Source: Nonomuraea basaltis (GTDB taxonomy: Bacteria; Actinomycetota; Actinomycetes; Streptosporangiales; Streptosporangiaceae). From it: a DNA stretch of 64,000 nucleotides. The position numbers and the translations under genes were made by a program. The DNA is taken from the NCBI RefSeq assembly GCF_005893125.1, contig NZ_VCJS01000009.1, positions 62,001 through 126,000 on the forward strand. Direction: 5' to 3'. Shown piece after piece: positions 20,763 to 59,149 of the stretch (within the stretch, counting starts at the first letter, position 1; the number at the start of each line of letters is the position of its first letter). Under the pieces are notes generated by a model that saw only the letters and a list, made by a program, of their open reading frames with translations, did not search any database and was not told the origin of the DNA.

Positions 20763-21503
20763 TCACGCCAGGTCGTGGCTGATGGCCCGGATCACTTGGT
20801 GCTCGCCGTCGGAGTCGAAGAAGTGCCCGCCGGGCACCGGGTCGAGGTCGAAGCGCACGGACGTCTCGGCTCGCCAGCCGTCCATCTGCTCAGGGGGCGC
20901 CTCTGGGTCCTCGGTGCCGGCGAACGCGCGGATCGGCACCTCCAGCGGCGTCAGCGGGCGGAAGCCGTGCGTGCTGAGCACGGTCAGGTCGGCGTCCAGC
21001 GTGGGCAGCAGGCCCGCGAGCAGCTCCGGCTCGGCGAGGACCTCGGCCGGGGTGCCGCCCATCTCACGGACGTAGCCCTCCAGGCCGTCGTCGCGCCCCT
21101 CCCAGGCCCAGGTGCCGTCGTCGAAGCAGGGCGAGGCACTGGCCGCCACGAACATCATGCTCGGCATCGGCATCGCGCGCTCGCGCAACTCGTGCGCGAG
21201 CGCCCAGGCCACCCTGGCCCCCATGCTGACGCCATAGCAGGCGAACGGGCGGTCGAGCAGGGGCTTGATCATCTCGATGAGCTCGTCGACGAGCGGCGCC
21301 ATCCTGTCGTAGGGCGGCTCGGCGAACCTGTCGGCCCGACCCGGCAGCTGCACCGCGATCGGCTCGACGAAGTGCGGCATCAGCCGCGGCCAGTGCCGGT
21401 ACATCGCCGCGCTGCCGCCCGCGTGGTGAAAGCACAGCAACTGTACTTCGGCGGGCGCGCTACGCCCGAAACGTTTGAGCCAGCGGCGATCGCAGTCCTG
21501 CAC
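20763..21503 (-). CDS. Type II thioesterase (Ser nucleophile)
   Basis: 246 residues from GTG 21503, chosen because AAGGA lies 7 bases upstream; the frame opens earlier but overlaps the upstream gene. Alpha/beta hydrolase of the GrsT/TEII family: LLCFHHAGGSAAMYRHW, VQLPGRADR, nucleophile Ser93 in YGVSMG, and GGHFF with the catalytic His near the C-terminus. TEII enzymes free stalled or wrong acyl groups from carrier proteins. As no cis thioesterase exists in the cluster, it is also a candidate for final release. It is the last gene of an MbtH, A-T, P450, Cys-hydrolase, TE operon. Confidence 0.9.
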   Translation of the reverse strand: MQDCDRRWLKRFGRSAPAEVQLLCFHHAGGSAAMYRHWPRLMPHFVEPIAVQLPGRADRFAEPPYDRMAPLVDELIEMIKPLLDRPFACYGVSMGARVAWALAHELRERAMPMPSMMFVAASASPCFDDGTWAWEGRDDGLEGYVREMGGTPAEVLAEPELLAGLLPTLDADLTVLSTHGFRPLTPLEVPIRAFAGTEDPEAPPEQMDGWRAETSVRFDLDPVPGGHFFDSDGEHQVIRAISHDLA

Positions 21504-21517
21504 GTGGCCGTCCTTCC

Positions 21518-22258
21518 CTATGACGTCCTGAGCCCGGAGCACAGCAGGTCGAGCAGTTCAGCGGGCGCCTCGATGAACCGGTGATGGCGTCCCTCCAGGA
21601 GCACGGACGTCGTCTCGCCGCACTCCCCCCATCCGCCCATGGTCGAGAACGGGATCTCGTCGTCCTGGCTCCAGCCGATCGCGGTGATCGGGCAGGACAG
21701 GCGGAACGGGTCGGGCATCACGTAACGCTTGTTGGTCTCGACGTCGGCCCGCAGCACCTCGAGGTAGAGGGCGATCAGCTCGGCGCTGGGCTTGCCGCCG
21801 AGCTCGCGGATCAGCTTCTCCAGCTCGGCGCCGAGCTCGTCGTCGTCCATCGACAGGAACCTGCCGGCGGGCCCGTCCTGGGGGGCCACCTCGGACGAGA
21901 CGTACACCCGGGCCGGCGCCGGCATCCCGGTCCGCACCAGCTCCGCCGACACCTCGTAGGCGGCCAGCGCCGACCCGCAGTGGCCGAAGAAGCCGAACGG
22001 GACGTCAAGACAGGGTTCGAGCCCGATCACCATGAGCTTGGCCAGCTCCTGGTAGGAGTCGAAGTTCGGCTCGGCGAAGCGGGTCTCGTGGCCGGGCAGC
22101 TCGACCGGGAGGAACTCGACGCCGTCGTGCTGGTGCGGCCACTGGCGGTACATGCTGGCGCCGCAGCCCGAGTACGGGATCAGGAAGATCCGGCCCGTCG
22201 CCGCAGCCGATGGCCGGTGTGGCAGCCACGGGTTCCGCTGGTTCGGGCGTTGAGGCAT
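21518..22258 (-). CDS. TEII-like alpha/beta hydrolase with Cys nucleophile (possible aminoacyl shuttle)
   Basis: 246 residues. It looks like a TEII (IPYSGCGASMYRQW, VELPGHETRF), but the nucleophile elbow reads GHCGS, with Cys94 in place of Ser. The His region is kept (GRHHRF). Cys in this place is known from CmaE and SyrC, transferases that move aminoacyl groups between carrier proteins during coronamate and syringomycin assembly. The gene follows a free-standing A-T protein (Val-like pocket) and a P450 in one operon, so transfer of the modified aminoacyl group to a module with a dead A domain is the favoured role. A Cys-type hydrolytic thioesterase is the alternative. Confidence 0.8.
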   Translation of the reverse strand: MPQRPNQRNPWLPHRPSAAATGRIFLIPYSGCGASMYRQWPHQHDGVEFLPVELPGHETRFAEPNFDSYQELAKLMVIGLEPCLDVPFGFFGHCGSALAAYEVSAELVRTGMPAPARVYVSSEVAPQDGPAGRFLSMDDDELGAELEKLIRELGGKPSAELIALYLEVLRADVETNKRYVMPDPFRLSCPITAIGWSQDDEIPFSTMGGWGECGETTSVLLEGRHHRFIEAPAELLDLLCSGLRTS

Positions 22259-22290
22259 GTGCGGCCCTCCGGGAGTCGAGCGGGTCGGGG

Positions 22291-23562
22291 TCAGGCGGCG
22301 GGCTTGACCGCCCGCGCCGTGATCGGCAGGTGCTTGTAACCGGAGATGAAGTTCGACTGCAGGCGGACGGGCTCGCCGGCCGGCTCGAAGGCGGTGAAGC
22401 GCGAGAGCAGCTCGTTGAACAGGATCCGCAGGGTGACCCGGGCGACGGTGTGGCCGACGCAGTAGTGCGGGCCGATCCCGAAGGCGACATGCTTGTTGGG
22501 CCTGCGGCGCAGGTCGAACCGCTCGGCATCCGGGAAGGCCTCCTCGTCGCGGTTGGCCGCGCCGAGCCAGGTGACCACCGCCTCGCCGGCCTTGATCTTC
22601 GTCCCGCGCACCTCGGTGTCCTGGACGGCATACCGCATGAAGTGGCTGACCGGGGAGGCCAGGCGCAGCCCCTCCTCGACGGCGGTGGGAGTGACGCTCA
22701 GGTCGGCCGCCCAGGTGTCCAGCAGGCCGTCGCCGATGTGCTCGGTCATCATGTAGTTGGGTGAGTGCGGGGTGGTGACGACCGCGCCGAGCAGGACGCT
22801 GTAGCAGTTGGACATGACCTCGCCGGGCGTCATGGTCCGGCCGTCCACCTCGGTGGTGATCAGGATGCTGATCAGGTCGTCGCCGAGGTTGCGGCGGCGC
22901 TCCTTGTAGATGTCCTGGAAGTAGGCGAACAACTCGCGGTGCGCCTGGTCGAGGGTGGCCTGGCCGCCACCGGGCACCCGGTACTCAGGGTCCTCGGCCG
23001 CGATCGAGGCGTTGAGCAGGTGACCGAGCCGCGGCCAGTCGGCACGCGGCAGGCCCATCGACTCACCGCCCACCGCCACCGGCAGGGCCAGCATCGCCTG
23101 GGCGAAGTCGAAGGGACCGCCGTCGCCGAGCGGGCCGATCACCTCAAGGACCAGGTCGCGGATCAGCTGGTGCTGGGCCTCGATCGCCTTGATGGCCAGG
23201 GCCTTCTGCAGGCGGGCCCGCATGATCGTGTGCCGGGGCGGATCGGTCGCGGCGATCTGCCGTCCGCCCGCCGGGTCCTCGACGCCGAGGATGTTCAGCA
23301 GCGTGCCCCGCTCGGAGGTGAAGGTCTGGGCGTCGCGCAGCACGCGGTCGGCGTCGTGGTACTTCACCACCGACCAGAACCCGTTCCGCTCGTCGGCCTG
23401 CTGCCACTCCAGGTGGTCCAGTTCCCGGAGGCGCTCCCAGGTCGAACGGAAGCGGAAGTCGAGGTCGGCGTAGAGCATCGGATCGGCCAGCCCCTGCGCG
23501 GCCGCGGTGACCGGGCATCCGGGCGCGACCTGCTCGTCGGCGGCGCTACTGGGTTGCTGCAT
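22291..23562 (-). CDS. Cytochrome P450 (no acid in the I-helix), with the Val-type A-T operon
   Basis: 423 residues from ATG 23562, with AAGGAGAG 7 bases upstream and a 17-base overlap with the A-T gene end. Heme motif FGIGPHYCVG and ExxR in EEGLRLAS are present. The I-helix reads LLGAVVTTPHS, so the usual acid before the Thr is Val, a departure seen in P450s whose substrate helps deliver protons. Because the gene is flanked by an A-T didomain gene and a Cys-hydrolase, it most likely oxidises the aminoacyl group while it is on the PCP of that A-T protein, as in NovH/NovI and NikP1/NikQ pairs. Confidence 0.9.
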   Translation of the reverse strand: MQQPSSAADEQVAPGCPVTAAAQGLADPMLYADLDFRFRSTWERLRELDHLEWQQADERNGFWSVVKYHDADRVLRDAQTFTSERGTLLNILGVEDPAGGRQIAATDPPRHTIMRARLQKALAIKAIEAQHQLIRDLVLEVIGPLGDGGPFDFAQAMLALPVAVGGESMGLPRADWPRLGHLLNASIAAEDPEYRVPGGGQATLDQAHRELFAYFQDIYKERRRNLGDDLISILITTEVDGRTMTPGEVMSNCYSVLLGAVVTTPHSPNYMMTEHIGDGLLDTWAADLSVTPTAVEEGLRLASPVSHFMRYAVQDTEVRGTKIKAGEAVVTWLGAANRDEEAFPDAERFDLRRRPNKHVAFGIGPHYCVGHTVARVTLRILFNELLSRFTAFEPAGEPVRLQSNFISGYKHLPITARAVKPAA

Positions 23563-25372
23563 CCGCGCTCTCCTTCCCGGGCGGCGTTTCCGGCGGCTCT
23601 CGTCTCGGGTGCAGCTCCTCGGCGAGGGCGGCGATCGTCGGCCGCAGGTACAGGATGCGGGCCGGCAGGTTGACGTCGAACTCCTGCTGCAGCGCGGAGA
23701 GCAGCTCGGCGGCCAGCAGCGAGTGCCCGCCCAGGTCAAAGAAGTTGTCCTGCACCCCGATCGGCTCGACGTCCAGCGCGTCGCTCCAGATCGCGGCCAG
23801 GCGGTCCTCGACCGGGCCGCTCGGCTCGACGTAGTCGTTCCAGACGTTGCGCGGGATCTTCTCAGTGGGCAGCGCGGAGCGGTCCACCTTGCCGTTGGGG
23901 TTGAGCGGGATGTCGCTGACCACGATGACGGCCCAGGGCACGAGGTGGGCGGGGACGGTTCCCAGCAGCTTCTCCCGCAGCGCCGTACCGAAGGAGGTCC
24001 ATTCGGCCGGGTCCATCTCCCCCACGGCCACGTAGGCGATGAGCCGGGTGTCACCGGCCCCGTTGGTGCGGGTGACGACCGCGGCCTGCTCGACGCCCGG
24101 CTGGCGTAGCAGCTCCATCTCCACCGTGCTCAGCTCGACCCGGTAGCCGCGGATTTTGACCTGCCGGTCGGAGCGGCCGAGGTAGTCGAGCGTGCCGTCC
24201 TCGGACCGGCGCGCGAGGTCGCCGGTGCGGTACATCCGGCTGCCCGGCGGCGCCGCCGGGTCGGGGTCGGCGACGAACCGTTCGGCCGTGGCGCCGGGCC
24301 GGTTCAGGTAGCCGGTGGCGACGCCGTTCCCGCCGACCCACAACTCGCCGACGTCCCCGTCAGCGACGGGCCTGAGCCGCTCGTCCAGCACGACGGCGGT
24401 GCTGCCGTCGATCGGCACGCCGATGGGCACGCGCGCGGCCGAGCCGCTCGTGCGAGTCGTCCAGCACGTGCTGAACGTGGTGTTCTCCGTGGGCCCGTAG
24501 CCGTTGGTGAAGACGAGGCCGGGGTAGGCGGCCATCACCCTCTGCACGTGCGCGGGGGACAGGACGTCGCCGCCGGCCAGCAGGTGGCGGATGCCGTTCA
24601 GGCCGTCGAGGTGGTGTGTGACGATCTTGTGGAACAGGCCGGTGGTCAGCCACAACACGCTGACCCCTTCGTCGCGGAGCGTCGCCACGATCTCCGCCAG
24701 GTCGGCGTGCCCGGTCGGCGCGAGCGCGAGCCGGCAACCCCGCACCAGGGGCATCCAGATCTCGAAGGTGGAGACGTCGAACCCGACCCGGGTCAGCTGC
24801 AGAAAGACGTCGTCGTCACGCACGTCGATCCAGGTGGGCGCGTTGATCAGCCGCCAGACCGCGCGGTGGGGGACGACGACGCCCTTGGGCTCGCCGGTGG
24901 AGCCCGAGGTGTAGCAGACGTAGGCGGGGGTGTCCGGGTGCGTCTCAGGCGCGGTGACGGGCTCGTTCACCTCAGGCTCAGTGACGTCGTACGGCAGGAC
25001 GTGCGCCACGTCCGGCGCCTGGTCGTGAAACTGCGATCCGACGACGGCGAAGCGCGCCCGCGCGTCGCTCACGATCCGCGCCCGCTGCTCGGAAGGTTCG
25101 GCCGGATCGAGGTAGAGGTAGGCACCACCCGCCTTGAGGATCCCGGTCAGGGTGACGATGAGCTCCGGCGTGCGGCCCAGGACCACCGCCACCACCGCCC
25201 CGCCGCCGACACCGGTCGCCCGCAGGCGCCGCGCCATGGCCTCCGCAGATCGATCGAGCTCCCCGTAGGTCAGGGTGTGGCCGCGGAAGCTGACCGCGAC
25301 CCGGTCCGGCGTCCGCGCGCACTGCTCGGCCACCATCTCGTGGACGCACCGTGGTGTTCCGCTGTCGGTCAT
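23546..25372 (-). CDS. Free-standing NRPS A-T didomain, Val-like pocket
   Basis: 608 residues from ATG 25372 (GGGAG 5 bases upstream). A domain at about residues 20-500 with CYTSGSTGEPKG, GYGPTE, YRTGD, and NGKVDR; T domain at about 525-600 with LGGHSLL. The eight pocket positions plus ends read DVFWLGGTFK by eye, two conservative changes from the known Val code DAFWIGGTFK. So it should load Val (or a close branched residue) on its own PCP. No C or TE domain is present. It follows the MbtH gene and precedes a P450 and two alpha/beta hydrolases in the same operon, which points to off-line loading, oxidation and shuttling of the residue. Confidence 0.9.
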   Translation of the reverse strand: MTDSGTPRCVHEMVAEQCARTPDRVAVSFRGHTLTYGELDRSAEAMARRLRATGVGGGAVVAVVLGRTPELIVTLTGILKAGGAYLYLDPAEPSEQRARIVSDARARFAVVGSQFHDQAPDVAHVLPYDVTEPEVNEPVTAPETHPDTPAYVCYTSGSTGEPKGVVVPHRAVWRLINAPTWIDVRDDDVFLQLTRVGFDVSTFEIWMPLVRGCRLALAPTGHADLAEIVATLRDEGVSVLWLTTGLFHKIVTHHLDGLNGIRHLLAGGDVLSPAHVQRVMAAYPGLVFTNGYGPTENTTFSTCWTTRTSGSAARVPIGVPIDGSTAVVLDERLRPVADGDVGELWVGGNGVATGYLNRPGATAERFVADPDPAAPPGSRMYRTGDLARRSEDGTLDYLGRSDRQVKIRGYRVELSTVEMELLRQPGVEQAAVVTRTNGAGDTRLIAYVAVGEMDPAEWTSFGTALREKLLGTVPAHLVPWAVIVVSDIPLNPNGKVDRSALPTEKIPRNVWNDYVEPSGPVEDRLAAIWSDALDVEPIGVQDNFFDLGGHSLLAAELLSALQQEFDVNLPARILYLRPTIAALAEELHPRREPPETPPGKESADAATQ

Positions 25373-25392
25373 CGCCGCTCCCATCGAAGCCA

Positions 25393-25614
25393 CTACTCGT
25401 GGGCGGAGGTCGCGACGGCTTCGCGCCGTGCGCTGCGGGGGCGCAGGTCTGTCCAGTTGGCCTCGATATAGTCCAGGCATGCCTGCCGCGTGTCCTCGCC
25501 GTGCACGACCCGCCACCCGGCCGGGACGTCCAGCGCCGCGGGCCACAGCGAATGCTGGTCCTCGTCGTTGACGAGCACCGTGAAGCTGCCATCGGGGTCA
25601 TCAAACGGGTTCAT
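25393..25614 (-). CDS. MbtH-like protein
   Basis: 73 residues from ATG 25614 (AAGGAG 11 bases upstream; a GTG at 25626 is too close to it). MbtH signature: [15 protein letters not shown] and the later [12 protein letters not shown]. Small chaperones of this family bind A domains and help them fold and act. It is the only MbtH gene in the window and heads the A-T/P450/hydrolase operon, so it may serve all A domains of the cluster. Confidence 0.95.
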
Positions 25615-25690
25615 GACGTGAACCACTCCTTATCAGGACGTCCACAACGGTGCGGCTAGTCAGCAAAGCTATCGAGATCGGCATCGCCGG

Positions 25691-25716: not shown

Positions 25717-25756
25717 GGCCCGGCACCCGCCTGAAACACGGCTGGGACGGCCGGAT

Positions 25757-26889: not shown

Positions 26890-26922
26890 CCCGTGCCACA
26901 GCCGCCCGGAGGTACCTGGGAC

Positions 26923-33534
<6,612 letters not shown>

Positions 33535-33551
33535 TCAGGAGGCGCGGCCTC

Positions 33552-35039: not shown

Positions 35040-35040
35040 A

Positions 35041-40624: not shown

Positions 40625-40875
40625 ATGGCGGCTCGACCGTGCGCCGGAGGTTTCCCTCCCGGCACCTGTGTCAGCTTCGGAAGCCCAGGAAGGGTGTGCC
40701 ATAGTCCGAACGGTACGTGGCCGCTGTGGTCGTGCGGATGTCACACAAAATGGGGATCGCCCGAGGGATAACCAACGCAGCATGGAACGTTCCGTCCACC
40801 GATCGGCGCAGCGTGATGGAGGGCAGGAGGGAGCCGCGCTCTGAGCATGAGGGCCGCCTGCCGTACGGGAAAGCT
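40625..40875. other. Gap before the T-C-A*-T gene, with a GAAA-loop hairpin
   Basis: 251 bases between the A-T stop (40876) and the NRPS start used here. On the minus strand a hairpin (40643-40663) pairs GCCGGGAGG with CCTCCGGC around a GAAA tetraloop, one base bulged, ending 18 bases before ATG 40624. If that start is right, the hairpin would hide the only GGGAGG. If translation starts at 40702 the hairpin is within the coding sequence. No separate gene is supported. Confidence 0.4.
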
Positions 40876-43519: not shown

Positions 43520-43569
43520 ATCGCGCGGGATAGTCGGAGGGTGTTCATCGGCGGACCGAAGGGGTGCGC

Positions 43570-44799: not shown

Positions 44800-46621
44800 G
44801 GGGCGGCGCCGTACCGGACCACTCGGCGTCGAAGTGGGCGGCGAGCTCGCGCAGCACGGGATGCTTGAACACCGCGACGAGCGGGATGGCCCGCCCGGCC
44901 TGGCGGCGAAGGTGGGCCACCAGCCGGATCGCGAGCAGCGACTGGCCGCCGAGCTCGAAGAAGTTGTCGTCCGCGCCGACCAGCTCGACCTGGAGCACCT
45001 CGCGCCACGCGTCGGCGATCAGCCGCTCGGTCGGGGTCCGCGGCGCGGTCGCCTCCCGGTCGGCGCTCTCCGGCCTGGCCGGTGGTGGCAGCGCCGCGCG
45101 GTCCACCTTGCCGTTGCGGGTGAGCGGAAACCGCTCAAGCGCCACCAGTACGGCCGGCACCATGTATTCGGGCAGGTGCTCGGCGGCCACGCGCCGCACC
45201 TCCTCAGCATCGAACCCGGCGGCGGCCCGTTCCAGGCGGCAGTAGCCGACGAGACCGGCGCCGCCCGGCATGTCGTCGCGGACCAGGGCGACCCCCTGGA
45301 CCACCCCAGGGCAGCGGCTCAGCACCGCCTCGACCTCGCCCAGCTCGATGCGGTACCCGCGCAGCTTGACCTGGTCGTCGCAGCGGCCGAGGAACTCCAG
45401 CCTGCCGTCCTGCCCGATCCGCGCCCGGTCGCCGGTCCGGTACATCCGCCCGCCGTCCCCGGCGACCACGTCGGGCACGAAGCGCTGCGCGGTCAGCCCG
45501 GGCATGCCGAGGTAGCCGCGTGACACACCGGCTCCGGCCACGTACAGCTCGCCCTCGACCTCGGGAGGGACCGGCCGCAGCTTCTCGTCGAGCAGGTGCA
45601 CCCGGACGCCGGGCAGCGGATCGCCCAGATGTGGCCGGCTGGCGTGGTCGATCCGCGCGCACGTGGCATCGACCGTGCATTCGGTCGGGCCGTACAGGTT
45701 GACCGGCGCGAGGACTCCGGCGGCGCGCTGATCCGCCAGGCGGCGCCACAGCGCGGGAGTGACGGCCTCGCCGCCGACGAGCAGCCGCAGCGGCGCGCCG
45801 CCGCGCTCCTTCGGCAGGTATTCGAGCAGCGAAACCACGTGCGACGGGGTGATGTCGAGCTCGTCGAGCCGCTCCTCGGCGATGAGCGCCGCGAGTGCCT
45901 GCGGGTCGCTGCGGACGTGGTCGCCGATGAGGACGACGGTGTCGCCGCGGCACAACCGCGACCACTGCTGCACCGAGGCGTCGAACGACGGGCTGGCGTT
46001 CCAGCCGACCCTGGCCGGTACGGGCCCGGTGACGGACGCCAGGCCGTCCAGCAGCGAGGCCAGCGATCCATGCGTGACCTCGACGCCCTTCGGGAGGCCG
46101 GTCGAGCCTGAGGTGTAGATCGCGTAGGCACGCTGTCCCGGGCGGATGGCGGCGCGGCGGGACGGCCCGCCGGTGGCGACGCGGGCGCAGGTGTCCACGC
46201 TGAGGATCTGCCTCGCCAGTGCCGGCGAGACGCGGCGGCGGGTGGCGGCGTCGGACAGCACCAGTGCGGTGCCGGCCTGCTCACACATGTATCGCAGCCG
46301 GCCGATGGGCAGGGCGGGGTCGAGAGGCAGGTATCCGGCTCCGGCGCGCAGCGTGCCGAGCAGGCCGACCACGAGGTCGAAGCCGCGCGGCATCAGCAGG
46401 CCGACGAGGGACTCCGCGCCGATGCCCCGCCCGGCCAGGCCGGCCGCGACCGCGGCGCTGCGCGCGGCCAGCTCGCCGAAGGTGAGGACGTCGCCGTCGC
46501 AGACCAGCGCCGGGCGGTCGGGGTGTGCCGCGGCCACCTGCTCGAATCGGCTGACGGCCGACCGCCAGCCCGCAGCCTTCGTGTCGTCTGCCGCGGCGAC
46601 CGCCTCGGCCGGTGAGGTCAT
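44786..46621 (-). CDS. Free-standing NRPS A-T didomain, Gln-like pocket
   Basis: 611 residues; ATG 46621 with GGAGGG about 9 bases upstream. A domain at about 20-515 (YTSGSTGLPKG, LYGPTE, YRTGD, NGKVDR), T domain at about 535-600 (LGGQSLL). Pocket reads DAQDLGLVDK, one change from the known Gln code DAQDLGVVDK. It is the last gene of a DUF2306, radical SAM, A-T operon, so the loaded Gln may be C-methylated, and it faces a P450 gene. Only two A* modules are in the window but three A-T proteins exist, so one of the three may serve another purpose. Confidence 0.9.
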   Translation of the reverse strand: MTSPAEAVAAADDTKAAGWRSAVSRFEQVAAAHPDRPALVCDGDVLTFGELAARSAAVAAGLAGRGIGAESLVGLLMPRGFDLVVGLLGTLRAGAGYLPLDPALPIGRLRYMCEQAGTALVLSDAATRRRVSPALARQILSVDTCARVATGGPSRRAAIRPGQRAYAIYTSGSTGLPKGVEVTHGSLASLLDGLASVTGPVPARVGWNASPSFDASVQQWSRLCRGDTVVLIGDHVRSDPQALAALIAEERLDELDITPSHVVSLLEYLPKERGGAPLRLLVGGEAVTPALWRRLADQRAAGVLAPVNLYGPTECTVDATCARIDHASRPHLGDPLPGVRVHLLDEKLRPVPPEVEGELYVAGAGVSRGYLGMPGLTAQRFVPDVVAGDGGRMYRTGDRARIGQDGRLEFLGRCDDQVKLRGYRIELGEVEAVLSRCPGVVQGVALVRDDMPGGAGLVGYCRLERAAAGFDAEEVRRVAAEHLPEYMVPAVLVALERFPLTRNGKVDRAALPPPARPESADREATAPRTPTERLIADAWREVLQVELVGADDNFFELGGQSLLAIRLVAHLRRQAGRAIPLVAVFKHPVLRELAAHFDAEWSGTAPPLSEP

Positions 46622-46645: not shown

Positions 46646-48271
46646 TCAGTAGCTGAACTTGGCCGGTTCCACGTTCAGGGCGGCCACGCCGTCGGCGAAG
46701 CGTTGTTCCAGAGCGGCCAGCCGCGCGGGCCCGCCCCCTCGGTTGCGCACGCCCATCAGCTCCTGGCTGGTACGGAGCAGCTGCGTCAGCTCCCCCACGC
46801 CCACGCCCTTGCCCTCCAGGTAGGGCAGCGACCAGAAGTCGAAGTCGTACAGAGGCAGCCAGACCGACTCCGTCACCCGCTCGAACATCTCGTCGGTGAG
46901 CGCCGCGGCCTCCGCTGAGGACATGCTGAAGTGCGACCAGCTGTAGCCCTCGCCCGCGATCGCCAGCTGCTCCTTCTGCTGGTAGATCGGCGAGCGGGGA
47001 TTGGCCCACCAGGCCTGCGCCCGCCACAGGTCGGGCGCGGTCTCGTTGAGGAAGTCGATGGTGTTGCCCACCGTCTTCTCGGTCTCGCCAGGGAATCCGA
47101 CGATGATCGAGGCGAAGGTGGCGATGCCGCGTTCCTTGAGCCGGGCGATGCCGACGCGGTACTGGCTGTCCTGCGCGAGCTTGTGCATGTTGGCCAGCAC
47201 CTCGCTGTCGCCGGACTCGATGCCCAGGAAGACGCCGGCGCAACCGCTGCGGGCGGCCAGGTCGAACGACTCCTCGTCACGAGCGTTGGAGCAGCGGAAG
47301 TAGGAGTACCACCGCAGGCCGAGATCCTCGTCGATCATCATCTGACACAGCTGATTGAACCGTTTGGGCGGCACGTTGAAGGTGTCGTCCACGAAGACCA
47401 CGTTCTGCACACCCAGCTCGGCCAGCGCGCGCAACTCCTTCCGCACGGTCTCCACCGACGCCGTGGCCAGCGCGCCGGCGCGGGTCGGGTAGTCGCAGAA
47501 GCTGCACTTGAACGCGCAGCTGCGCGCGGTGCGCAGCTGGGCGGTCCTGCCGATGAGGTCAGGGCTGAAGCCGGCCCAGTCGATCGAGCACTCGTCGAGG
47601 TTGTTGTTCTCCGGGCGGCGACGGGTGCGGACCCACTCCCCGTCCGGGCAGTGGATCAGGTTGTCCACGGCGGCGATGTCGGCGCCACTGCGAATGGCGT
47701 GGCACAGCCGGCCCAGGCTGAGCTCGCCCTGCGACTCCTGGATGTAGGAGTCGGCGCCCATGGCGAAGAAGAAGTCCTGGACCGCGCCGGTCATGCCCGA
47801 CTGGCACAGGTTGTCGACGAGAGGGCCGCCGACCACGATGTGGCTCGACGGCGACATCTGGCGGACGTATTCGACGATCGGGCCCACCGGCAGGATGTTG
47901 ACGTAGAACGTGGTGGTGATGGCGACGACGGCGGGCTGCTCGGCCAGCAGCGCCGCGAGGCGGTCAGGCTCGGCGCTGAACAGCGAGACCGGTTCTGCCC
48001 GCAAGCCCCGCCTGCGCAGGTAGCTGGTCAGGTACAGCGCCGCCAGGTTGAACACCTCGCCCACGTGGTACCTGTCGGCACGGCCTGTGTCACGGTTTCT
48101 GATGCGGCTGAACGCGTCGAGCCATGGCATCGCCGTACCATCGACCACCAGGTGCTCCGAGCGCATGATCTGGAACTCCGGCGTGCCTGGACCGGCCCGC
48201 TCGCACATGACCCGGTAGTCGTCGAAGTCGCCTTCGTTGTATCCGATCACTACGCAGTCGAGACCGTCCAT
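46646..48271 (-). CDS. B12-binding radical SAM enzyme (PhpK-like), probable C-methyltransferase
   Basis: 541 residues from ATG 48271 (AGGAG 5 bases upstream), in a TGATG overlap with the upstream stop. N-terminal half: Rossmann-like cobalamin-binding region (VVAITTTFYVN, HIVVGGPLVDN). Radical SAM core: C252-x3-C256-x2-C259 (CAFKCSFC) for the 4Fe-4S cluster, then VFVDDTFNVP, GCAGVFLGIESG and IVGFPGET. It resembles PhpK, the P-methyltransferase of phosphinothricin, and others in peptide clusters that methylate unactivated carbon. With no phosphinate genes here, C-methylation of an amino acid or the peptide is likelier. The adjacent Gln-type A-T gene suggests a methylated glutamine. Confidence 0.9.
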   Translation of the reverse strand: MDGLDCVVIGYNEGDFDDYRVMCERAGPGTPEFQIMRSEHLVVDGTAMPWLDAFSRIRNRDTGRADRYHVGEVFNLAALYLTSYLRRRGLRAEPVSLFSAEPDRLAALLAEQPAVVAITTTFYVNILPVGPIVEYVRQMSPSSHIVVGGPLVDNLCQSGMTGAVQDFFFAMGADSYIQESQGELSLGRLCHAIRSGADIAAVDNLIHCPDGEWVRTRRRPENNNLDECSIDWAGFSPDLIGRTAQLRTARSCAFKCSFCDYPTRAGALATASVETVRKELRALAELGVQNVVFVDDTFNVPPKRFNQLCQMMIDEDLGLRWYSYFRCSNARDEESFDLAARSGCAGVFLGIESGDSEVLANMHKLAQDSQYRVGIARLKERGIATFASIIVGFPGETEKTVGNTIDFLNETAPDLWRAQAWWANPRSPIYQQKEQLAIAGEGYSWSHFSMSSAEAAALTDEMFERVTESVWLPLYDFDFWSLPYLEGKGVGVGELTQLLRTSQELMGVRNRGGGPARLAALEQRFADGVAALNVEPAKFSY

Positions 48272-49089
48272 CACGTCTCCTGTACGATCGCCGGCGCCTG
48301 GTCGGCGGAGAGTTCCTCGTCAGCCGGCGAGAGTCGCGGCTCCGGCCTGCGGCGTTGCTCACGGTCCAGCCACCACTCCACCGTGATGAAGGCGACGGTC
48401 CACGGCAGCCAGGTCGCGGCGGCGGAGGCCGCCTGCTCCATGAAGTGCTTGTTGCCCATGAACGTCGTGTCGAGCTGGGAGGCGAGGTACATCCCGATCG
48501 GCAGACCGAGGATCCGGTTGAAGATGATCGAGATGGTCAGGGTGAAGCTGCGCAGCATCCACCGGCGGTGATCGGCGTACCACCCTTGGCGGGCGAGCAC
48601 GAATCCGTAGGTCGTGACGGAGAACCACAGCAGGGCCAGCACGATGTCGCTCAGCGCGCTGACGGGACCGAACGGCCAGATCACCGAGATCACCAGCGCG
48701 CCGGCCGCGGCAGGCCAGACGCCCGCGAGAACGTAGATCCGGCCGGCGTACCTGTGCACCCGGCGGTGTCGGCGCCGCAACCACGGCCAGACCTGCAGGA
48801 CGCAGGTGGACATGGCCACGGTCGCGCCCAGCACGTGCGTCATGAGCACCGGGAAGTACAGGGGGTGCTCGGCCGGTGAGAGCCTGCCCACGCTCGGATC
48901 GAAGCTGAGGTACCTCGGGATGAAGAGGCTGAGGAACACGACGACCGCGGCCGCCAGCACTCCCAGGGCAATGCGGCCACCGAGCCGGCGTCGACCGGGA
49001 CGGGCGGCGCGGCCTTGATGACCGTTCCGCTTCTCGTCGCCGGCCCGCGTCCGGCTGACAGACGGTTGCGGTACGGATGACATACGCAC
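48271..49089 (-). CDS. DUF2306 membrane protein
   Basis: 272 residues. Seven or so hydrophobic helices after a basic N-terminus; conserved DUF2306 blocks HRRVHRYAGRIYVLAG and ADHRRWMLRSFTLT, which resemble cytochrome b561-like membrane proteins and include paired His that could bind heme. Function in this cluster unknown; electron supply or a maturation step for the neighbouring radical SAM or P450 enzymes is possible but speculative. First gene of the radical SAM operon. GTG at 49089 and ATG at 49083 are both possible starts. Confidence 0.82.
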   Translation of the reverse strand: MRMSSVPQPSVSRTRAGDEKRNGHQGRAARPGRRRLGGRIALGVLAAAVVVFLSLFIPRYLSFDPSVGRLSPAEHPLYFPVLMTHVLGATVAMSTCVLQVWPWLRRRHRRVHRYAGRIYVLAGVWPAAAGALVISVIWPFGPVSALSDIVLALLWFSVTTYGFVLARQGWYADHRRWMLRSFTLTISIIFNRILGLPIGMYLASQLDTTFMGNKHFMEQAASAAATWLPWTVAFITVEWWLDREQRRRPEPRLSPADEELSADQAPAIVQET

Positions 49090-50083: not shown

Positions 50084-50084
50084 C

Positions 50085-52828: not shown

Positions 52829-52976
52829 CCCCCGAGCCGTCCTGTGTTCCGGTGACGCCCTCTCTGATCGGCCCGCGGGTAGCGTCGCTCACCAGAAGCG
52901 CGCACAGCGGAGCCGGCGGGCGCTGTCCTTCGTTGAATGGCTCTTGCGCGAGAACCCGCGCGGATGGGGAGACCTC

Positions 52977-55900
52977 ATGACCGACCTGCAAAGCCGGATC
53001 GCGGCTCTCTCGTCAGAGCAGAGGGCGCAGTTGGAATCGCGGGTCGCCGACCTGATGGCGACCCGCGAGCCGGTCCGGGAAGAGCGGATCCGGCCACGCG
53101 ATCGTTCCCGCCCCACCCCGTTGGGCATCGCGCAGCAGCGGGAGTGGGCCATCGAGCGGCTGCGGTCGGCCAACAACATCAACAGCGCCTTCAGGATCGA
53201 CGGCGAGCTCGACCTGGAGTTGCTGAGCCGGGTCCTCACGGAGGTCGTCGAGCGGCACGAGGTGCTGCGCTCCACGGTGGAGTTGCAGGACGGGATCCCG
53301 GTCCAGGTGGTGCACCCGGTCACCCCGGTGCCCACTCCCGCGGTCGACCTGACGCACACCGCGCCTGACCGGCAGCGGGAGTCGGTGCGCCGGCACTGCA
53401 AGGCCGAGATCATGCGTCCCTTCGACCCCAGGGATCCGCAGCGATTGCGGGTCACCCTGATGCGCCTGGCCGAGAACCTGCACGTCGTCCTGTTCACCAC
53501 CGACCACGCCGCCTCGGACGCGTGGTCGTTGTCGATCGTGGTCCGCGAGCTCGTGACTTTGTATGGCATCCGGCTGAACGGCGGCGGCATCCTCCCGGCG
53601 CCGGATCTCCAGTTCGGTGACTTCGCCGCCTGGCAGCGTGAGCAGTTCGGGGAGGAGCGGGTGGCCGCCGAGCTGCAGCACTGGCGGCAGACGCTGGACG
53701 GCATCCCCGCGCCGCCGGTGTGGCCGACCGACCGGCCGTACCCGGCGCGGCCGACGTTCGCCGGCGACGTGCACATCGTGAACCTCTCCCCCGAGCTCAC
53801 CGCCTCCCTGCGCGACCTGAGCGAGCGCGAGAACGCGCCACTGGTCGCGATCCTGCTCGCCGGCTGTTCCATGCTGCTGCACCGCTACCTTGAGCAGGAC
53901 GACATCGTCATCGGCTCGCTCGTCTCGGGGCGCAACCGGGTGGAGACCGAACAGATCATCGGCTGCTTCGCCAACCCGCTGCCCCTGCGCATGCGGCTGA
54001 GCGAGGAGCTGACGCTGCGCGAGGTCGTGAGCCGGGCACGCGAGACCATGGCCACCGCTCTGGACCATCAGGACCTGCCCTTCGACCGGGTGATCGACGA
54101 GCTCGGCCTCGGGCGGGAGGCGTCGCAGACGTCGCTGAGCCGGTTGTGGATCAATGTGCTCACCGTGCCGGGGAACGACCTTGAGGTACCCGGCCTGCGC
54201 ATCACTCCGGAGCCGATCGACCTTGGGCTGGTGTCGGTCGACCTCACCCTGTCGGCCATCCCCCGCGGCGAGTCGCTGCAGCTGCAGTGGCACTACATGA
54301 CCGAGCTGTTCGACGCCGAGACGGTGGTGCTGCTCGCCGGCCAGTTTCAGGAGATCCTGCGCCAGCTCGCCATCGCGCCCGACGACGCGGTGCGGCAGGT
54401 GGAGCTGACCGTCGCCCCCGCGCCGGCGGCCCAGGCGCCGGTTCTCACGGCGCGTGACGTCGAGGCCGGGTTCGTCGAGCTGTTCCAGCGCAGGGTCGCG
54501 CTCGCGCCGAACGCGCCCGCCGTCGTCTGCGACGGGGTCGCCACCAGCTACGCCGACCTCAACCGGGAGGCCAACCGGCTGGCCCACTCGCTGCGTGCCA
54601 GGGGTGTCGGCAGGGAGACGCGCGTCGGCATCCTGGTGGAGCGCTCGCCTCAGCTGGCCGTGGCGATCCTCGGCGTGCTCAAGGCCGGTGGAGTCTACGT
54701 TCCCGTGGATCCGGCCTATCCGCCCGACCGCATCGCCTTCATCCTCGCCGACGCGGGCGCGAAGGTACTGGTCACTCAGGAACGGCTGGCGCCGGACACC
54801 GCAATCGAGATGGTCTTCCTCGACGGACCTTCTATGGCCGGTGGCGACGCGGACTGCGATCTGGCCGAGGCGCCTGATCCGGCCTCGCTCGCTTACGTCG
54901 TCTACACCTCGGGCTCGACCGGCCGCCCCAAGGGCGCCATGATCGAGCACCGCTCCCTGGTGACCTTCGCCCGCGACATCGTCGACCGGCTCGGGCTCGG
55001 CGCCGGAGACCGGTTCCTGCAATTCGCCTCGCCGAGCTTCGACGTGCTGGTCGAGGAGCTGTTCCCGATCTGGCTCGCGGGCGGCGCCGTGGTCATCCCG
55101 ACGCAGCACCTGATCAGCGGCGAAGCCGACCTCGCCGACCTGGTCGAGCGGGACCGGCTGACCGTGATGGAACTGCCCACGGCGTACTGGCACGAGTGGG
55201 TGCGCGAGCTCGACCGCCTGGACCGCAAGCTGCCGAGCTGCCTGCGACTCGTGATCATCGGCGGGGAACGGGTCCTGCCGGAACGGCTGGCCATGTGGCG
55301 GCGGCTCGGCGTGCCGTTGATGCATGTGTACGGGCTGACGGAGACCACGGTCAGCTCGACCTTCTTCCGCCTTGACCCGATCGACCGCTTCGACTGGCCG
55401 AACCTGCCGATCGGAACCGCCCTGCCCTCGGCCGACCTGCGCCTGCTCAACAGCCGGCTCAGGCCGGTGCCCCTGGGAGGCATCGGCGAGCTGTACATCG
55501 GCGGCATCAGCCTGGCCCGCGGCTATCTCGGCCGCTCCGGCCTGACCGCGCAGCGCTTCGTCGCCGATCCCGACCCGGCGCGCCCGGGGGAACGGCTCTA
55601 CCGCACCGGCGACCTGGTGCGCCTGCGCCCAGACGGCAACCTGGAGTTCATCTCCCGCGTCGACACGCAGATCAAGATCCGCGGCTTCCGGGTGGAACCC
55701 GCGGAGATCGAGTCGGCGCTCAGCAGGCATCCGCAGGTCGCCGAGTCGGTCGTGACCCTCTACGAGCCCGTGCCCGGCGACCGGCGCCTGCTGGCATACG
55801 TCGTCCCGCCGAGCGGCGAGACCGCGCCGAACCTCGGCGAACTGCGCCGCTACCTCGAACGCGAGCTGCCCGCCTACATGGTGCCCTCCACACTGGTGGA

Positions 55901-58565
55901 GCTCGACGCGCTCCCGCTCAGCCCCAACGGCAAGCTCGACCGCGCCCGCCTGCCCACGCCGGACGGCGGCAGGCCGGAGCTGACCGAGGACTACGTCGCG
56001 CCGAGCACGCCGTTGCAGCAGAAGCTGGCCGAGATCGTGGCGGCCGTGGTCGGCGTCGACACCGTCGGCATCCACGACAACTTCTTCGACCTCGGCGGCG
56101 ACTCGATCCAGGCCATCCAGGTCGTGGCCAGGGCCCAGGAGGAGGGCATCGGCCTGTCGCCGCTCGACTTCTTCGAGCAGCCCACGATCGCGCTGCTGGC
56201 GCACGCGGCCAGCGCCGCCGACCCCGACAGGGCCGTCCGTCCGCGACCGCCGGACGCCGAGCCGGTGCTCTCGTTCGACCAGGAGCGGCTCTGGCTGGAG
56301 CATCAGCTGCGGCCCAAGACGGCCTACCACGTCGGCGGGCGGTATCGCCTGGTCGGCCCGCTCAAGGTCGGCGACCTGGAGGCCAGCATCCGCGCGATCC
56401 TCACCCGCCACGAGGTGTTGCGCACGAGCTTCCCGACCGTGGACGGCCGGCCGGTTCCCGTCGTCGGCGAGATCGACGGCTGGAGTCTCGACATCGTGGA
56501 CCTCAGCGACGCCGACGACGGCGCCGAGGCCGCCAAGCGACTGCTGGACGAGGAGTTCAGCGCCGCCTTCGACCTGGCCGAGGGTCCCCTGTTCCGGTGC
56601 ACGCTGGTCAAGCTGAGCGACACCGAGCACATGCTCAACATCACCTCGCACCACGTCGTCTCGGACAACTGGTCGATCGGCCTGTTCGGGCTGGAGCTGG
56701 TGGCGCTGTACGAGGCGGGCGGCGACGTGGACCGGGCCGGACTGCTCCCGCTTCCCGTCCAGTACCGTGACTTCGCCGTGTGGCAGCGCGAGCGCCTGGT
56801 CGGCGAGGAGCTCGGCGAGAAGGTGGACTACTGGCGCCGTCACCTGGCCGGGGCACCGCCGGCGATCACGATGCCGATCGCGCCGCGCACTCCGGGAGCG
56901 GGCGGCGGTCGCAGCCTGACCAGGCTCTCCCCCGAGCAGACGATCGCCGTGCACGAGCTGTGCCGCAAGCACGGTGTGACCCCGTTCATGGTGGTGCTGG
57001 CCTGCCTGGCGACGGTGTTGCGCCGCTGGTCCGGCCAGTCGGACATCGTGATCGGGACGTCGGTCAGCGGACGGACAGACGTCGCGATCGAGAACCTGAT
57101 CGGCGTCTTCATCAACACCATGCCGCTCCATCTCGACCTGTCGGGCGACCCGGCCTTCACCGAGTTGCTGAAGCGCGCTCGCCAGGTCTCGGTGGACGGC
57201 TACGCCCACTCAGACGCGCCGTTCGACATCCTCGTGAAGGAGCTGCAGGTACCGCGCGATCCCCGGCGAACGCCGCTGTTCCAGGTGGTCCTGAACGTCT
57301 TCGAGCTGCCTTCGATCCGGCAGATCGGCGACGTCTCGCTCACCGCGATGCCTCTGCCCGAGCTGCTCAGCAGCTTCGACCTCGTCTTCACCGCGCTGGA
57401 GGCTTTCGGCGCCTACCAGCTCCGGCTCGAATACGACGCCGAGCGCTACCAGGCCTCGATGATGGAGATCCTCCTCGAACACCTGCGCACGATGCTGATC
57501 ACAGTGGCGCAGGACTCCACGCGAGGCATTCTCGACTACCCCCTGGACGATGCCGAGGCGGTCACCGTCGCCGAGACCTCGACCGGCGACCGGCCGCTGC
57601 CCGCGCTACACCTGGCGGTCGAGCGGCACGGACGATCCCCTGACCGGATCGCGGTCGTCGACAAGGACGGCGAATGGAGCTACCAGTGGCTCGCCGCGGC
57701 GGCCGATCGTGTCGCGCGGGTGCTGGCGGAGCGGGACCTGCCGCCTGGGGAACGCGTCACCATCGTCAGGCGGCCCACGGCCACTTTCGTGGCGGCGGTG
57801 CTCGGATGTGCGAAGGACGGGAGGAAGTTCACGGTCGTCGAGGAGGCCGACGGGGTCTCGACGGTCCTGGATGTGAGCTCTGGCGAGCTCGATCTCGGCG
57901 AACTGCCTCCGCGATCCGGCGACGACCCGCCCGCCGTACTCTCCGACTGGGCACTGGAGCGGTTCGAGCTCGGCGGCGACGACCGGTTCGCGGTGCTGTC
58001 CAACCAGCCCGGTCACCTGGTCTCGGCGATGTCGAGCGCCTTCCACACCGGGGCGACGCTGGTCATCCCGGACCGTTCGTTCACGGGCGACTTCAACGCT
58101 CTCGTGGCGTGGTTGCGGGACAACTCCGTCAGTGTCATCTACGTCAACCCGCCAGCCCTGCGGACCATAGCCGCCAGGAACCCGCTGCCGCAGCTGCCCG
58201 CGCTGAGGTACGCCTTCGTCGACAACTCCGGCGAGCTCATCTCCCACGACTTCGACGCGCTGCGCCGGTTGTCGCCTTCCTGCCGGTGCGTGGGCCTGTA
58301 TCGCATGGGCGGTGACGGCCGGCCGCTCGCCACGTACACGATGCCGGAGGACTGGCGGCGGGAGACCGCTCCCCCACGGGTCCCCCTCGGCACCGACTTG
58401 GACGACGCGCCGGCCCAGCTCCGGCACCCGTCGGGGCAGCCGGCCGCGGTCGGCGAGGTCACCGAGATCTGCTTCGGCGCCCACCACACCGGCGACCTCG
58501 GACGCCGGTGGGCCGACGGCACGCTGGAGTACGTCGGCAAGCTCGAAGGGGAAACCGCGCGATGA
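52977..58565 (+). CDS. NRPS C-A-T-C-A*, basic-residue A domain and degenerate second A
   Basis: 1,862 residues from ATG 52977 (GGGGAGA upstream). C1 at about 35-475 with DHAASDAW (first His of HHxxxDG is Asp, catalytic second His kept), A at about 500-975 ([23 protein letters not shown]; pocket DVEEIGVVSK, two Glu in the pocket, so a basic substrate), T with Ser1043 in LGGDSI, C2 at about 1090-1525 (HHVVSDNW), then A* to the end. A* has no YTSGSTG or YGPTE, reading DDRFAVLSNQPGH in place, but keeps HHTGDLGRRW. The frame ends right after it; the A subdomain and T continue in the next gene. C2-A* is a close paralogue of the NRPS at 37391-40624. Confidence 0.93.
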   Translation: MTDLQSRIAALSSEQRAQLESRVADLMATREPVREERIRPRDRSRPTPLGIAQQREWAIERLRSANNINSAFRIDGELDLELLSRVLTEVVERHEVLRSTVELQDGIPVQVVHPVTPVPTPAVDLTHTAPDRQRESVRRHCKAEIMRPFDPRDPQRLRVTLMRLAENLHVVLFTTDHAASDAWSLSIVVRELVTLYGIRLNGGGILPAPDLQFGDFAAWQREQFGEERVAAELQHWRQTLDGIPAPPVWPTDRPYPARPTFAGDVHIVNLSPELTASLRDLSERENAPLVAILLAGCSMLLHRYLEQDDIVIGSLVSGRNRVETEQIIGCFANPLPLRMRLSEELTLREVVSRARETMATALDHQDLPFDRVIDELGLGREASQTSLSRLWINVLTVPGNDLEVPGLRITPEPIDLGLVSVDLTLSAIPRGESLQLQWHYMTELFDAETVVLLAGQFQEILRQLAIAPDDAVRQVELTVAPAPAAQAPVLTARDVEAGFVELFQRRVALAPNAPAVVCDGVATSYADLNREANRLAHSLRARGVGRETRVGILVERSPQLAVAILGVLKAGGVYVPVDPAYPPDRIAFILADAGAKVLVTQERLAPDTAIEMVFLDGPSMAGGDADCDLAEAPDPASLAYVVYTSGSTGRPKGAMIEHRSLVTFARDIVDRLGLGAGDRFLQFASPSFDVLVEELFPIWLAGGAVVIPTQHLISGEADLADLVERDRLTVMELPTAYWHEWVRELDRLDRKLPSCLRLVIIGGERVLPERLAMWRRLGVPLMHVYGLTETTVSSTFFRLDPIDRFDWPNLPIGTALPSADLRLLNSRLRPVPLGGIGELYIGGISLARGYLGRSGLTAQRFVADPDPARPGERLYRTGDLVRLRPDGNLEFISRVDTQIKIRGFRVEPAEIESALSRHPQVAESVVTLYEPVPGDRRLLAYVVPPSGETAPNLGELRRYLERELPAYMVPSTLVELDALPLSPNGKLDRARLPTPDGGRPELTEDYVAPSTPLQQKLAEIVAAVVGVDTVGIHDNFFDLGGDSIQAIQVVARAQEEGIGLSPLDFFEQPTIALLAHAASAADPDRAVRPRPPDAEPVLSFDQERLWLEHQLRPKTAYHVGGRYRLVGPLKVGDLEASIRAILTRHEVLRTSFPTVDGRPVPVVGEIDGWSLDIVDLSDADDGAEAAKRLLDEEFSAAFDLAEGPLFRCTLVKLSDTEHMLNITSHHVVSDNWSIGLFGLELVALYEAGGDVDRAGLLPLPVQYRDFAVWQRERLVGEELGEKVDYWRRHLAGAPPAITMPIAPRTPGAGGGRSLTRLSPEQTIAVHELCRKHGVTPFMVVLACLATVLRRWSGQSDIVIGTSVSGRTDVAIENLIGVFINTMPLHLDLSGDPAFTELLKRARQVSVDGYAHSDAPFDILVKELQVPRDPRRTPLFQVVLNVFELPSIRQIGDVSLTAMPLPELLSSFDLVFTALEAFGAYQLRLEYDAERYQASMMEILLEHLRTMLITVAQDSTRGILDYPLDDAEAVTVAETSTGDRPLPALHLAVERHGRSPDRIAVVDKDGEWSYQWLAAAADRVARVLAERDLPPGERVTIVRRPTATFVAAVLGCAKDGRKFTVVEEADGVSTVLDVSSGELDLGELPPRSGDDPPAVLSDWALERFELGGDDRFAVLSNQPGHLVSAMSSAFHTGATLVIPDRSFTGDFNALVAWLRDNSVSVIYVNPPALRTIAARNPLPQLPALRYAFVDNSGELISHDFDALRRLSPSCRCVGLYRMGGDGRPLATYTMPEDWRRETAPPRVPLGTDLDDAPAQLRHPSGQPAAVGEVTEICFGAHHTGDLGRRWADGTLEYVGKLEGETAR

Positions 58566-59149
58566 GCCACTCCGGCACGCCGGTCGACCCGATCGAGACG
58601 CTGACCGCGCTGCGCGACGTGCCGGAGGTGTGCGGCGCGGTCGTGACCGAGCACGTCGCGGCGGACGGCCGCACCGCGCTTCTCGGCTACGTCACCGGCC
58701 CGGACCCGGCGCTCGGCACCGTCAGGATCCGGCAGTACCTGACCAGCCTGCTGCCTGACTATCTGATCCCGGAACACCTCTTCGTCCTGGAGGAGTTCCC
58801 GCTCACGCCGGCGGGCGACTACGACCTGAGCGCTCTGCCGGAGCCTCCGGCGGAAAGCGGCCCGGTCAACGGCTATGTGGCCCCGCGCACGCCGGTGGAA
58901 CACCGGCTCGCCGACATCATCAAGGAGCTCCTCCGGATCGACACCGTCGGAATCCACGACAACTACTTCGCTCTGGGCGGCTCCTCCATCCTGGCGACCC
59001 GGCTCGCCGCCCAGATCCACGAGATCTTCGCCGTGGAGGTGCCCCTGCTGGAGGTGCTCGCCTCTCCCACGGTCGACGAGCTGGCACAGCTGATCGACCA
59101 GCCCACGCCGAGCTCCAGGGACGTGATCGCGGAGGCGGCGAGAAGATGA
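58562..59149 (+). CDS. NRPS A-subdomain plus T, split from the previous module
   Basis: 195 residues; ATG overlaps the upstream stop (ATGA). It opens with DPIETLTALRDVPEV, the same sequence that directly follows A* in the other paralogue, so it is the second half of a module that there is one protein. It holds the small C-terminal A subdomain (YLIPEHLFVLEEFPLTPAGDYD region, where the catalytic Lys of NGKxD is Asp) and a T domain with Ser142 in LGGSS. It is the last carrier in the window and has no thioesterase, reductase or terminal C domain, so the way the chain leaves is unknown. The split may be a native gene fission or a single point change. Confidence 0.9.
   Translation: MSHSGTPVDPIETLTALRDVPEVCGAVVTEHVAADGRTALLGYVTGPDPALGTVRIRQYLTSLLPDYLIPEHLFVLEEFPLTPAGDYDLSALPEPPAESGPVNGYVAPRTPVEHRLADIIKELLRIDTVGIHDNYFALGGSSILATRLAAQIHEIFAVEVPLLEVLASPTVDELAQLIDQPTPSSRDVIAEAARR

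Follow-up and report, generated by a model that had tools for sequence, protein, structure and literature searches.

Cysteine-type thioesterases as candidate aminoacyl shuttles to modules with eroded adenylation domains in a Nonomuraea basaltis peptide synthetase cluster

Transfer of aminoacyl groups from free-standing didomain proteins, composed of an adenylation (A) and a thiolation (T) domain, by type II thioesterases (TEIIs) or by enzymes of the SyrC/CmaE type has either been demonstrated or been put forward for legonindolizidine, WS9326A, rotihibin, syringomycin and coronamic acid, according to the accessible parts of the published accounts, on which our comparisons with described systems draw. 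SyrC (syringomycin) and CmaE (coronamic acid) are α/β-hydrolases with a cysteine nucleophile that shuttle aminoacyl groups between carriers, SyrC after chlorination of the residue on its carrier. Dead A domains complemented by an A-T protein are described for albicidin and bripiodionen; in albicidin and cystobactamid it is an inactive in-line A domain that a stand-alone A-T complements (PMC8949500). Here we describe a non-ribosomal peptide synthetase (NRPS) cluster of Nonomuraea basaltis that combines two modules with dead A domains (A*), three A-T didomain proteins, two stand-alone TEIIs with a cysteine nucleophile (Cys TE 1 and Cys TE 2) and cytochrome P450 genes. It spans about 5.8 to 59.1 kb of a 64,000-nucleotide stretch (contig NZ_VCJS01000009.1, positions 62,001 to 126,000; hereafter the window) of a 14.3 Mb genome. 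This set of genes, first noticed in a prediction made from the letters of the sequence, is confirmed. We consider it likely, from sequence comparison, that the Cys TEs shuttle residues loaded and oxidised off-line to the dead-A modules, with the free A-T proteins as the source and P450s as the oxidising enzymes.

The closest described systems differ from this locus in defined respects. WS9326A, which we know by description, has the A-T didomains WS22/WS23, the TEIIs WS5/WS20 and an A-less module with condensation (C) and T domains (Kim et al., 2021; PMC8748450, PMC10956176); it shares with the window two A-T didomains, two stand-alone TEII-like enzymes and an acceptor without a working A domain, it differs in that here the acceptors contain dead A domains and P450s belong to the cassette. 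The nucleophile of both window enzymes is Cys. In the legonindolizidine system (LgnA/LgnB/LgnD) a TEII, LgnA, likewise carries an aminoacyl residue over from an A-T protein to a T domain in a second NRPS; it works with a Ser-Asp-His triad, its acceptor is A-less and the accessible text makes no mention of a P450, in contrast to the Cys, P450 and dead A domains seen here (PMC8748450). For albicidin and cystobactamid the accessible text describes neither a Cys-type TEII shuttle nor a P450 cassette (PMC8949500). The GHCGS and GHCMG motifs of the two Cys TEs fit the α/β-hydrolases with a Cys nucleophile typified by SyrC and CmaE; they differ in being PF00975 TEII-like proteins, the comparison with SyrC and CmaE being one of descriptions. 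Since TEII shuttles to A-less modules are known from WS9326A and legonindolizidine, the present system is best viewed as a variant, Cys-type, coupled to hydroxylases and associated with eroding A domains. No family of Cys-type TEIIs linked both to hydroxylation by P450s and to eroding A domains was found in the accessible open-access literature, a scope outside which most subscription papers fall.

Inactive adenylation domains and candidate shuttles in the window

The A* domains of synthetase N2 (A* 1) and of the N3/N4 pair (A* 2) were placed in an alignment with the functional A domains and the FAAL domain found in the window (features are listed in Table 1). Both lack the whole A3 P-loop segment, which is deleted, the A4 consensus, about 30 residues before A7 and the A8 hinge; A5 reads YRVGR or YRMGG instead of YGPTE, A7 (TGD) is retained, and the catalytic A10 lysine is replaced by aspartate (TPDGDYD and TPAGDYD). 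Neither therefore has the A3, A5, A8 and A10 core motifs of a functional adenylation domain, and the Pfam AMP-binding match in the first A* protein is confined to residues 604–673. The two A* domains are 59% identical over the part compared, and the acceptor T domains retain their serine (FFELSGFSL and FALGGSSIL). The original prediction that the A domains of two carrier-bearing modules are without ATP-binding motifs is thus upheld by the loss of A3, A5 and A10. Both modules are present at the predicted site with altered limits: the unit given as 37391–40624 is 37391–40783, and 52977–59149 comprises two genes.

Among this genome and two relatives, G198 and G182 (genomes are named by handles, the present one being G000), the ratio of nonsynonymous to synonymous substitution (dN/dS) is 0.23–0.37 for A* 1, against 0.17–0.30 for the C and T domains of N2, and 0.42–0.46 for A* 2, against 0.21–0.24 for the active A domain of the same gene. 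These values indicate that the A* domains are retained although the constraint on them is relaxed, the more so for A* 2. The split of N3 and N4 into two genes is also seen in G198 and G182. A sequencing error or a decaying pseudogene as the origin of the dead A domains is ruled out by the dN/dS of A* 1, which lies near that of its own C and T domains, and by the N3/N4 split in G198 and G182.

Both Cys TEs are stand-alone PF00975 thioesterases, encoded with A-T didomains and with modules that have no working A domain. Each has a Cys at the position of the serine nucleophile of the hydrolytic TEII RifR, and neither has the Ser-Asp-His triad with GHSxG of LgnA. Cys TE 1 retains Cys, Asp and His, while Cys TE 2 has Pro in place of the catalytic His in each of the three orthologues seen, a loss that is unfavourable for hydrolysis and an unusual state for a hydrolase. 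The two TEII-like enzymes with a Cys nucleophile, each beside a P450 gene, and the three A-T didomain proteins are as first described; all five are encoded on the minus strand. Of the two neighbouring P450s, that at 43564 has 4L0E as its best PDB match (E 4e-132), with 3MGX at 1.2e-67; for that at 22291 both 4L0E (5.8e-62) and 3MGX (4.3e-53) fall within the best five distinct PDB matches, two CYP125MRCA entries ranking higher. We take 4L0E and 3MGX to be P450sky and OxyD, hydroxylases of carrier-bound amino acids, and both window P450s resemble this class.

In the mechanism that we favour, the free A-T didomains, whose motifs are intact, would activate amino acids and keep them bound as thioesters, and the P450s, from their homology and gene order probably of the carrier-bound hydroxylase type, would oxidise the residues on the A-T proteins. 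The Cys TEs would pick up the aminoacyl group on their Cys, as a thioester, and deliver it to the T domain of a dead-A module, whose A* domain would be retained as a structural linker, not as a loader. The most likely pairing leads from A-T1, presumably Val-like, through the P450 at 22291 and Cys TE 1 to the last T domain of N2; A-T2 or A-T3 with Cys TE 2 would serve the split N3/N4 module, and the first T domain of N2 is probably loaded directly in trans by the free A domain that we take to be of Thr type. Which A-T feeds which A* is partly resolved. The same scheme probably operates more widely in Actinobacteria, with the bypassed A domain eroding stepwise.

Recurrence in related and distant clusters

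When up to four of the best first-look candidates per genome were scored in 345 genomes of the order, long high-scoring A* matches were found in six, this one included. The next hits fall from E 1e-55 to 1e-42 and mostly match an ordinary C-terminal part only, which marks A* as a discrete family. A pattern-based scan of a collection of 84,980 species gave eight loci. Three are new A* clusters, in Phytohabitans suffuscus, Nocardia sp. alder85J and Streptomyces sp. HmicA12; three were already known (G301 and two in G198), and two match in the C-terminal part only. The named genera with A* relatives are Planomonospora, Streptosporangium, Phytohabitans, Nocardia and Streptomyces.

Of these nine A* clusters, eight have clear stand-alone hydrolases with a Cys nucleophile, which belong to two fold families; the ninth (G345) is doubtful. 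A unit of A-T, P450, GHCGS TEII and G.SMG TEII is present in six (G000, G198, G182, G302, G301 and G347), in all of which the A-T1 code DVFWLGGTFK is identical and accompanied by the P450 and the GHCGS enzyme; a homologue of the Ser-type TEII occurs in all nine. Orthologues of the second A*, A-T2 and Cys TE 2 occur together in G000, G198 and G182, and no orthologue of any of them turned up in the parts of G302 and G301 that were fetched, where a second C domain that looks inactive (HRLxAD) takes the place of the second A* in N3. At NRPS C-termini of G302, G301, G347, G346 and G219, degenerate C domains with HRxxAD for HHxxxDG close the N3 homologues and, in G219 and G346, an A-T beside a P450; they resemble the P450-recruiting X domain of glycopeptide synthetases.

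In G219 and the Nocardia cluster, Cys hydrolases of a different family adjoin the A* genes, holding a position like that of SyrC and CmaE. The two G219 proteins match Pfam Abhydrolase_1, one above and one just under the cut-off, and a model built from them identified the Nocardia enzymes. In the genome survey for Cys α/β-hydrolases the best five first-look candidates per genome were scored. A plasmid search with one of the G219 hydrolases returned three records, two annotated as α/β hydrolase and one unannotated, and no CmaE. Both G219 and Nocardia also carry a GHCWS TEII near the capreomycidine synthase gene vioD.

At E ≤ 1e-40, with the best eight first-look candidates per genome scored, 21 of the 345 genomes yield 26 members of the Cys TE 1 family, all 26 with a Cys nucleophile. 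The proposal that the Cys motif and dead-A modules be sought together in other clusters was followed at loci outside the A* clusters, from each of which up to about 40 kb was fetched (48 kb for G275) and all in-frame C-x-T modules classified by one script. The Cys-TE set held 17 loci, 12 of them evaluable, with no in-frame C-x-T module in reach for G035, G275, G316, G238 and G061, and excluded G219b, which belongs to an A* cluster. Two sets served for comparison. The first comprised the 14 non-own hits of a single Ser TEII from this genome less G061, which already belongs to the Cys set, and held 13 loci, 9 of them evaluable; the second was made up of 11 further NRPS contigs of the window genome, C39 included, of which 9 were evaluable. 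Non-active modules numbered 14/29, 3/24 and 1/20, respectively, with domain models built mostly from the window and with modules split between proteins uncounted. At least one A-dead or A-less module was found at all 12 evaluable Cys-TE loci, where the motif and such modules do co-occur, at three of nine Ser loci and on one of nine own contigs (one-sided Fisher test, p = 0.0015 for Cys against Ser, the Ser control being one TEII family of unmatched cluster type, and 2.1e-5 for Cys against both). The cassette of A-T or T, P450 and TE occurs at 11/17 Cys-TE loci (two with T only), 0/13 Ser loci and 0/11 own contigs.

Twelve of the 14 degenerate or missing A stretches were read by eye (G313 and G037 were left out). 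They form an erosion series that starts with full-length domains whose P-loop is broken (G285, G272), passes through internal loss (G136) and dead domains carrying a methyltransferase (G155, G237), and ends in a C-terminal remnant (G136, G045, G301b) or no A domain at all (G091, G212).

The association extends to plasmids of another order, for which 17 records matched the Cys TE, 15 were listed and 12 examined (H5, H6, H9 and the two unlisted ones were left out). A non-active acceptor is present in 11 of the 12, about four of five cluster types. Streptomyces clavuligerus pSCL4 and Streptomyces sp. NBC_01237 have A-less C-T modules with a P450/Cys-TE pair, and S. cattleyicolor has such a pair with a dead methyltransferase-bearing A domain.

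With less assurance we lean towards a wider view, suggested by these comparisons: that the Cys TEII family is a widespread aminoacyl transferase, recognisable from its sequence, coupling on-carrier P450 hydroxylation to delivery to the assembly line; that the acceptor A domain, freed from selection, erodes in stages (P-loop lost, core deleted, C-terminal part left, absent); that this would also cover the azinothricin family, where hydrolysis and reactivation would be the wrong account; and that a second, unrelated Cys hydrolase family could substitute. A free A-T (or T), a P450 and a GHCx[GS] TEII would then signal an off-line hydroxylated residue destined for a wrong-looking or missing A domain, a rule that would repair structure prediction for non-colinear NRPS clusters, and the cassette would offer a transplantable route for placing hydroxylated residues.

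Several findings weigh against these readings. Shuttles and dead modules are unequal in number in several relatives; the match of two dead-A modules to two Cys shuttles, on which the original prediction leaned, holds in this genome, G198 and G182 and is no strict rule elsewhere. One shuttle per dead module is rejected by G302 and G301, which have three non-active modules and two Cys TEs, and in G347 two stand-alone Cys TEs and one in-line stand against a single clear non-active module and a doubtful second (an earlier count of non-active modules in A* clusters followed another A3 rule and was biased by selection). G345 has A*, and the Cys TE counted there is a weak 54-bit match that resembles the in-line terminal TE of G347; its reading frames are broken, and a neighbour of its A-T in which AYCMA was recognised by visual reading was left uncounted. 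G345 also has an A-T that is 49% identical to A-T2, without Cys TE 2. The closest A-T in G345 has a different code, DPFVIGMTAK, which fits a passive acceptor. The cassette of S. tendae has no C-x-T module without A within 40 kb; close by, at 12262–13917 of L149, a 'gntD' protein seems to consist of an A-domain C-terminal remnant, a T domain and a GntD-like hydroxylase. On the own contig C39 both evaluable modules are active and yet there is a stand-alone Cys TE, so Cys alone is no marker of dead-A clusters; that enzyme (L118, 13147–13872) is of another type, GYCSG, and lies directly behind a C-A-T gene. LgnA shuttles with Ser, which means that Cys is not required for transfer. Cys TE 1, with its intact triad, could hydrolyse, and A* 2 evolves faster (dN/dS 0.42–0.46). 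Collapsing related loci by TE identity weakens the contrast between the Cys and Ser sets, to 10/10 against 3/6 at 70% (p = 0.036), 7/7 against 3/6 at 60% (p = 0.07) and 5/5 against 1/2 at 55% (p = 0.29); for Cys against Ser and own contigs together, the latter uncollapsed, p is 0.0003 to 0.005. In its core, the sequence of loading, oxidation and carriage originally put forward remains the best reading, supported by the co-occurrence in eight of nine A* clusters and by the recurrence of the cassette beside dead-A or A-less modules; the strict count, membership in the CmaE/SyrC family and direct transfer as such do not gain this support.

Competing routes of loading

That a different A domain charges the dead-A modules in trans, or that residues pass to them spontaneously from A-T to T by transthiolation, with the Cys TEs confined to editing, is unlikely. 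There are precedents in the accessible accounts of capreomycin, where CmnI receives its residue from an A domain in a different module, and of bripiodionen (BpdD/BpdC), where deletion of the TEII gene bpd1 had no effect and transfer appears to proceed without a TEII, a further point against the shuttle reading, and a free A domain, presumably of Thr type, is at hand here. However, this route leaves unexplained both the presence of Cys hydrolases of two fold families with A* in eight of nine clusters and the A-T/P450/Cys-TE cassette.

That the Cys TEs are hydrolases freeing hydroxylated amino acids, which the A domain of a module then reactivates, is improbable as well, though the intact Cys-Asp-His of Cys TE 1 would permit it and the accessible papers on polyoxypeptin and aurantimycin propose just such hydrolysis by discrete TEs and reactivation by modular A domains (PlyI/PlyS and ArtI/ArtN; PMC3943440, PMC5031334). 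In those clusters PCP, P450 and TE stand in a row, followed by polyketide synthase (PKS) genes and then C-A-PCP (PlyQ-PlyR-PlyS-PlyX and ArtL-ArtM-ArtN-ArtT; PMC3943440, PMC5031334). Eight of the 12 plasmid records represent one azinothricin-like cluster type (identity 0.75–1.00, six at least 0.97, about three sequence types), with P450, TE, four PKS genes and C-A-T, and with a T domain before the P450 where the stretch reached; for six of the eight the stretch fetched ran from the P450 to the NRPS gene. This order matches that of aurantimycin and polyoxypeptin as tabulated in the papers, a comparison of order and not of sequences. All eight TEs have Cys, and the A domain at the PlyX/ArtT position is dead in all eight, its A3 loop broken and without its Lys, its A10 Lys replaced by T or R and its A8 Lys by D or E. 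If PlyX and ArtT share these changes the reactivation proposal cannot hold, and it is directly testable there. In the window itself the A* modules could not reactivate anything, and Cys TE 2 has no His.

Loading of the dead-A modules from aminoacyl-tRNA by the LanB-like (PEARL-like) protein is a very remote prospect: its gene overlaps the N2 stop and a LanB homologue occurs in seven of nine A* clusters (in pieces in G345, weak in G347), but the A*-bearing G219 genome gave no LanB-like match at E ≤ 1e-60, on which ground it is set aside as probably not the loader, no match was found in the fetched stretches of G346, which also has A*, such proteins occur in 60 of the 345 genomes against six with A* (best three first-look candidates per genome scored), and the substrate that SnaE, the known PEARL-like enzyme, extends is a free carboxylate rather than a thioester on a carrier. 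The window protein itself has Lant_dehydr_N alone, the N-terminal domain PF04738, with no elimination domain detected, as is characteristic of PEARLs.

Other genes of the cluster

Table 1. Positions of the features discussed, numbered from the first letter of the window. Residues assigned to specificity codes are presumed.
Feature	Position	Strand	Remarks
Penicillin-amidase-like protein	5830-8541	+	
Capreomycidine synthase (VioD)	8561-9706	+	
AlkZ-like (HTH_42) DNA glycosylase homologue	16305-17441	-	
Ser-type TEII	20763-21542	-	GVSMG
Cys TE 1	21518-22258	-	PF00975; GHCGS; Cys-Asp-His; candidate shuttle
P450 beside A-T1	22291-~23568 (start estimated)	-	same strand and gene run as Cys TE 1
A-T1	23546-25372	-	code DVFWLGGTFK, presumably Val-like
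MbtH-like protein	25462-25614	-	domain hit; upstream of A-T1
NRPS N1	26893-33534	+	FAAL-ACP-C-A-T-C; last C with EHHMIHDG
Free-standing A domain	33522-35039	+	code DFWNIGMVHK, presumably Thr
Lant_dehydr_N protein (PEARL-like, LanB-like)	35073-37394	-	overlaps N2 stop
NRPS N2	37391-40783	-	T-C-A*-T; first dead-A acceptor module
A* 1 (N2)	37943-39037	-	A3 loop deleted, A5 and A10 lost
A-T2	40876-42663	-	code DTFLCGLVAK
Cys TE 2	42693-43454	-	PF00975; GHCMG
P450 beside Cys TE 2	43564-44799	+	opposite strand to Cys TE 2
A-T3	44786-46621	-	code DAQDLGLVDK, presumably Gln-like
B12 radical-SAM protein, PhpK family	46646-48274	-	adjoins A-T3
NRPS N3	52944-58565	+	C-A-T-C-A* core; A code DVEEIGVVSK
A* 2, core part (N3)	57570-58562	+	
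N4	58562-59149	+	A* C-terminal part and T, own gene; ATGA overlap with N3 at 58562-58565

Three more P450 genes, at 15027, 19441 and 50085, bring the total in the cluster to five. The Ser-type TEII is a candidate for editing or release. The last C domain of N1 has EHHMIHDG or EHHMVHDG in all five clusters with a complete N1, and these five also carry the PEARL-like gene, like the threopeptin cluster; EHHXXHDG is the published signature of ureido-forming C domains (PMC11212132).

The capreomycidine synthase scores 529 bits against a cut-off of 390.9. Together with an A domain of code DVEEIGVVSK it occurs in eight of nine A* clusters, and that A domain may be for capreomycidine. In G219 VioD neighbours an N3-type module with, on visual reading, a similar code (DVEEIGCVTK), and in G345 DVEEIGVVSK sits on a separate A-T. 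The penicillin-amidase-like protein is present in six of nine A* clusters (in G345 in pieces), and with the FAAL-type starter it makes a cryptic N-acyl prodrug scheme possible.

The PhpK-family radical-SAM protein (736 bits against a cut-off of 600) is encoded, among the nine A* clusters, in G000, G198 and G182 only. The AlkZ-like protein is closely related to proteins of G198 and G182 and weakly to one of G219, and possibly serves in self-resistance against a DNA-reactive product.

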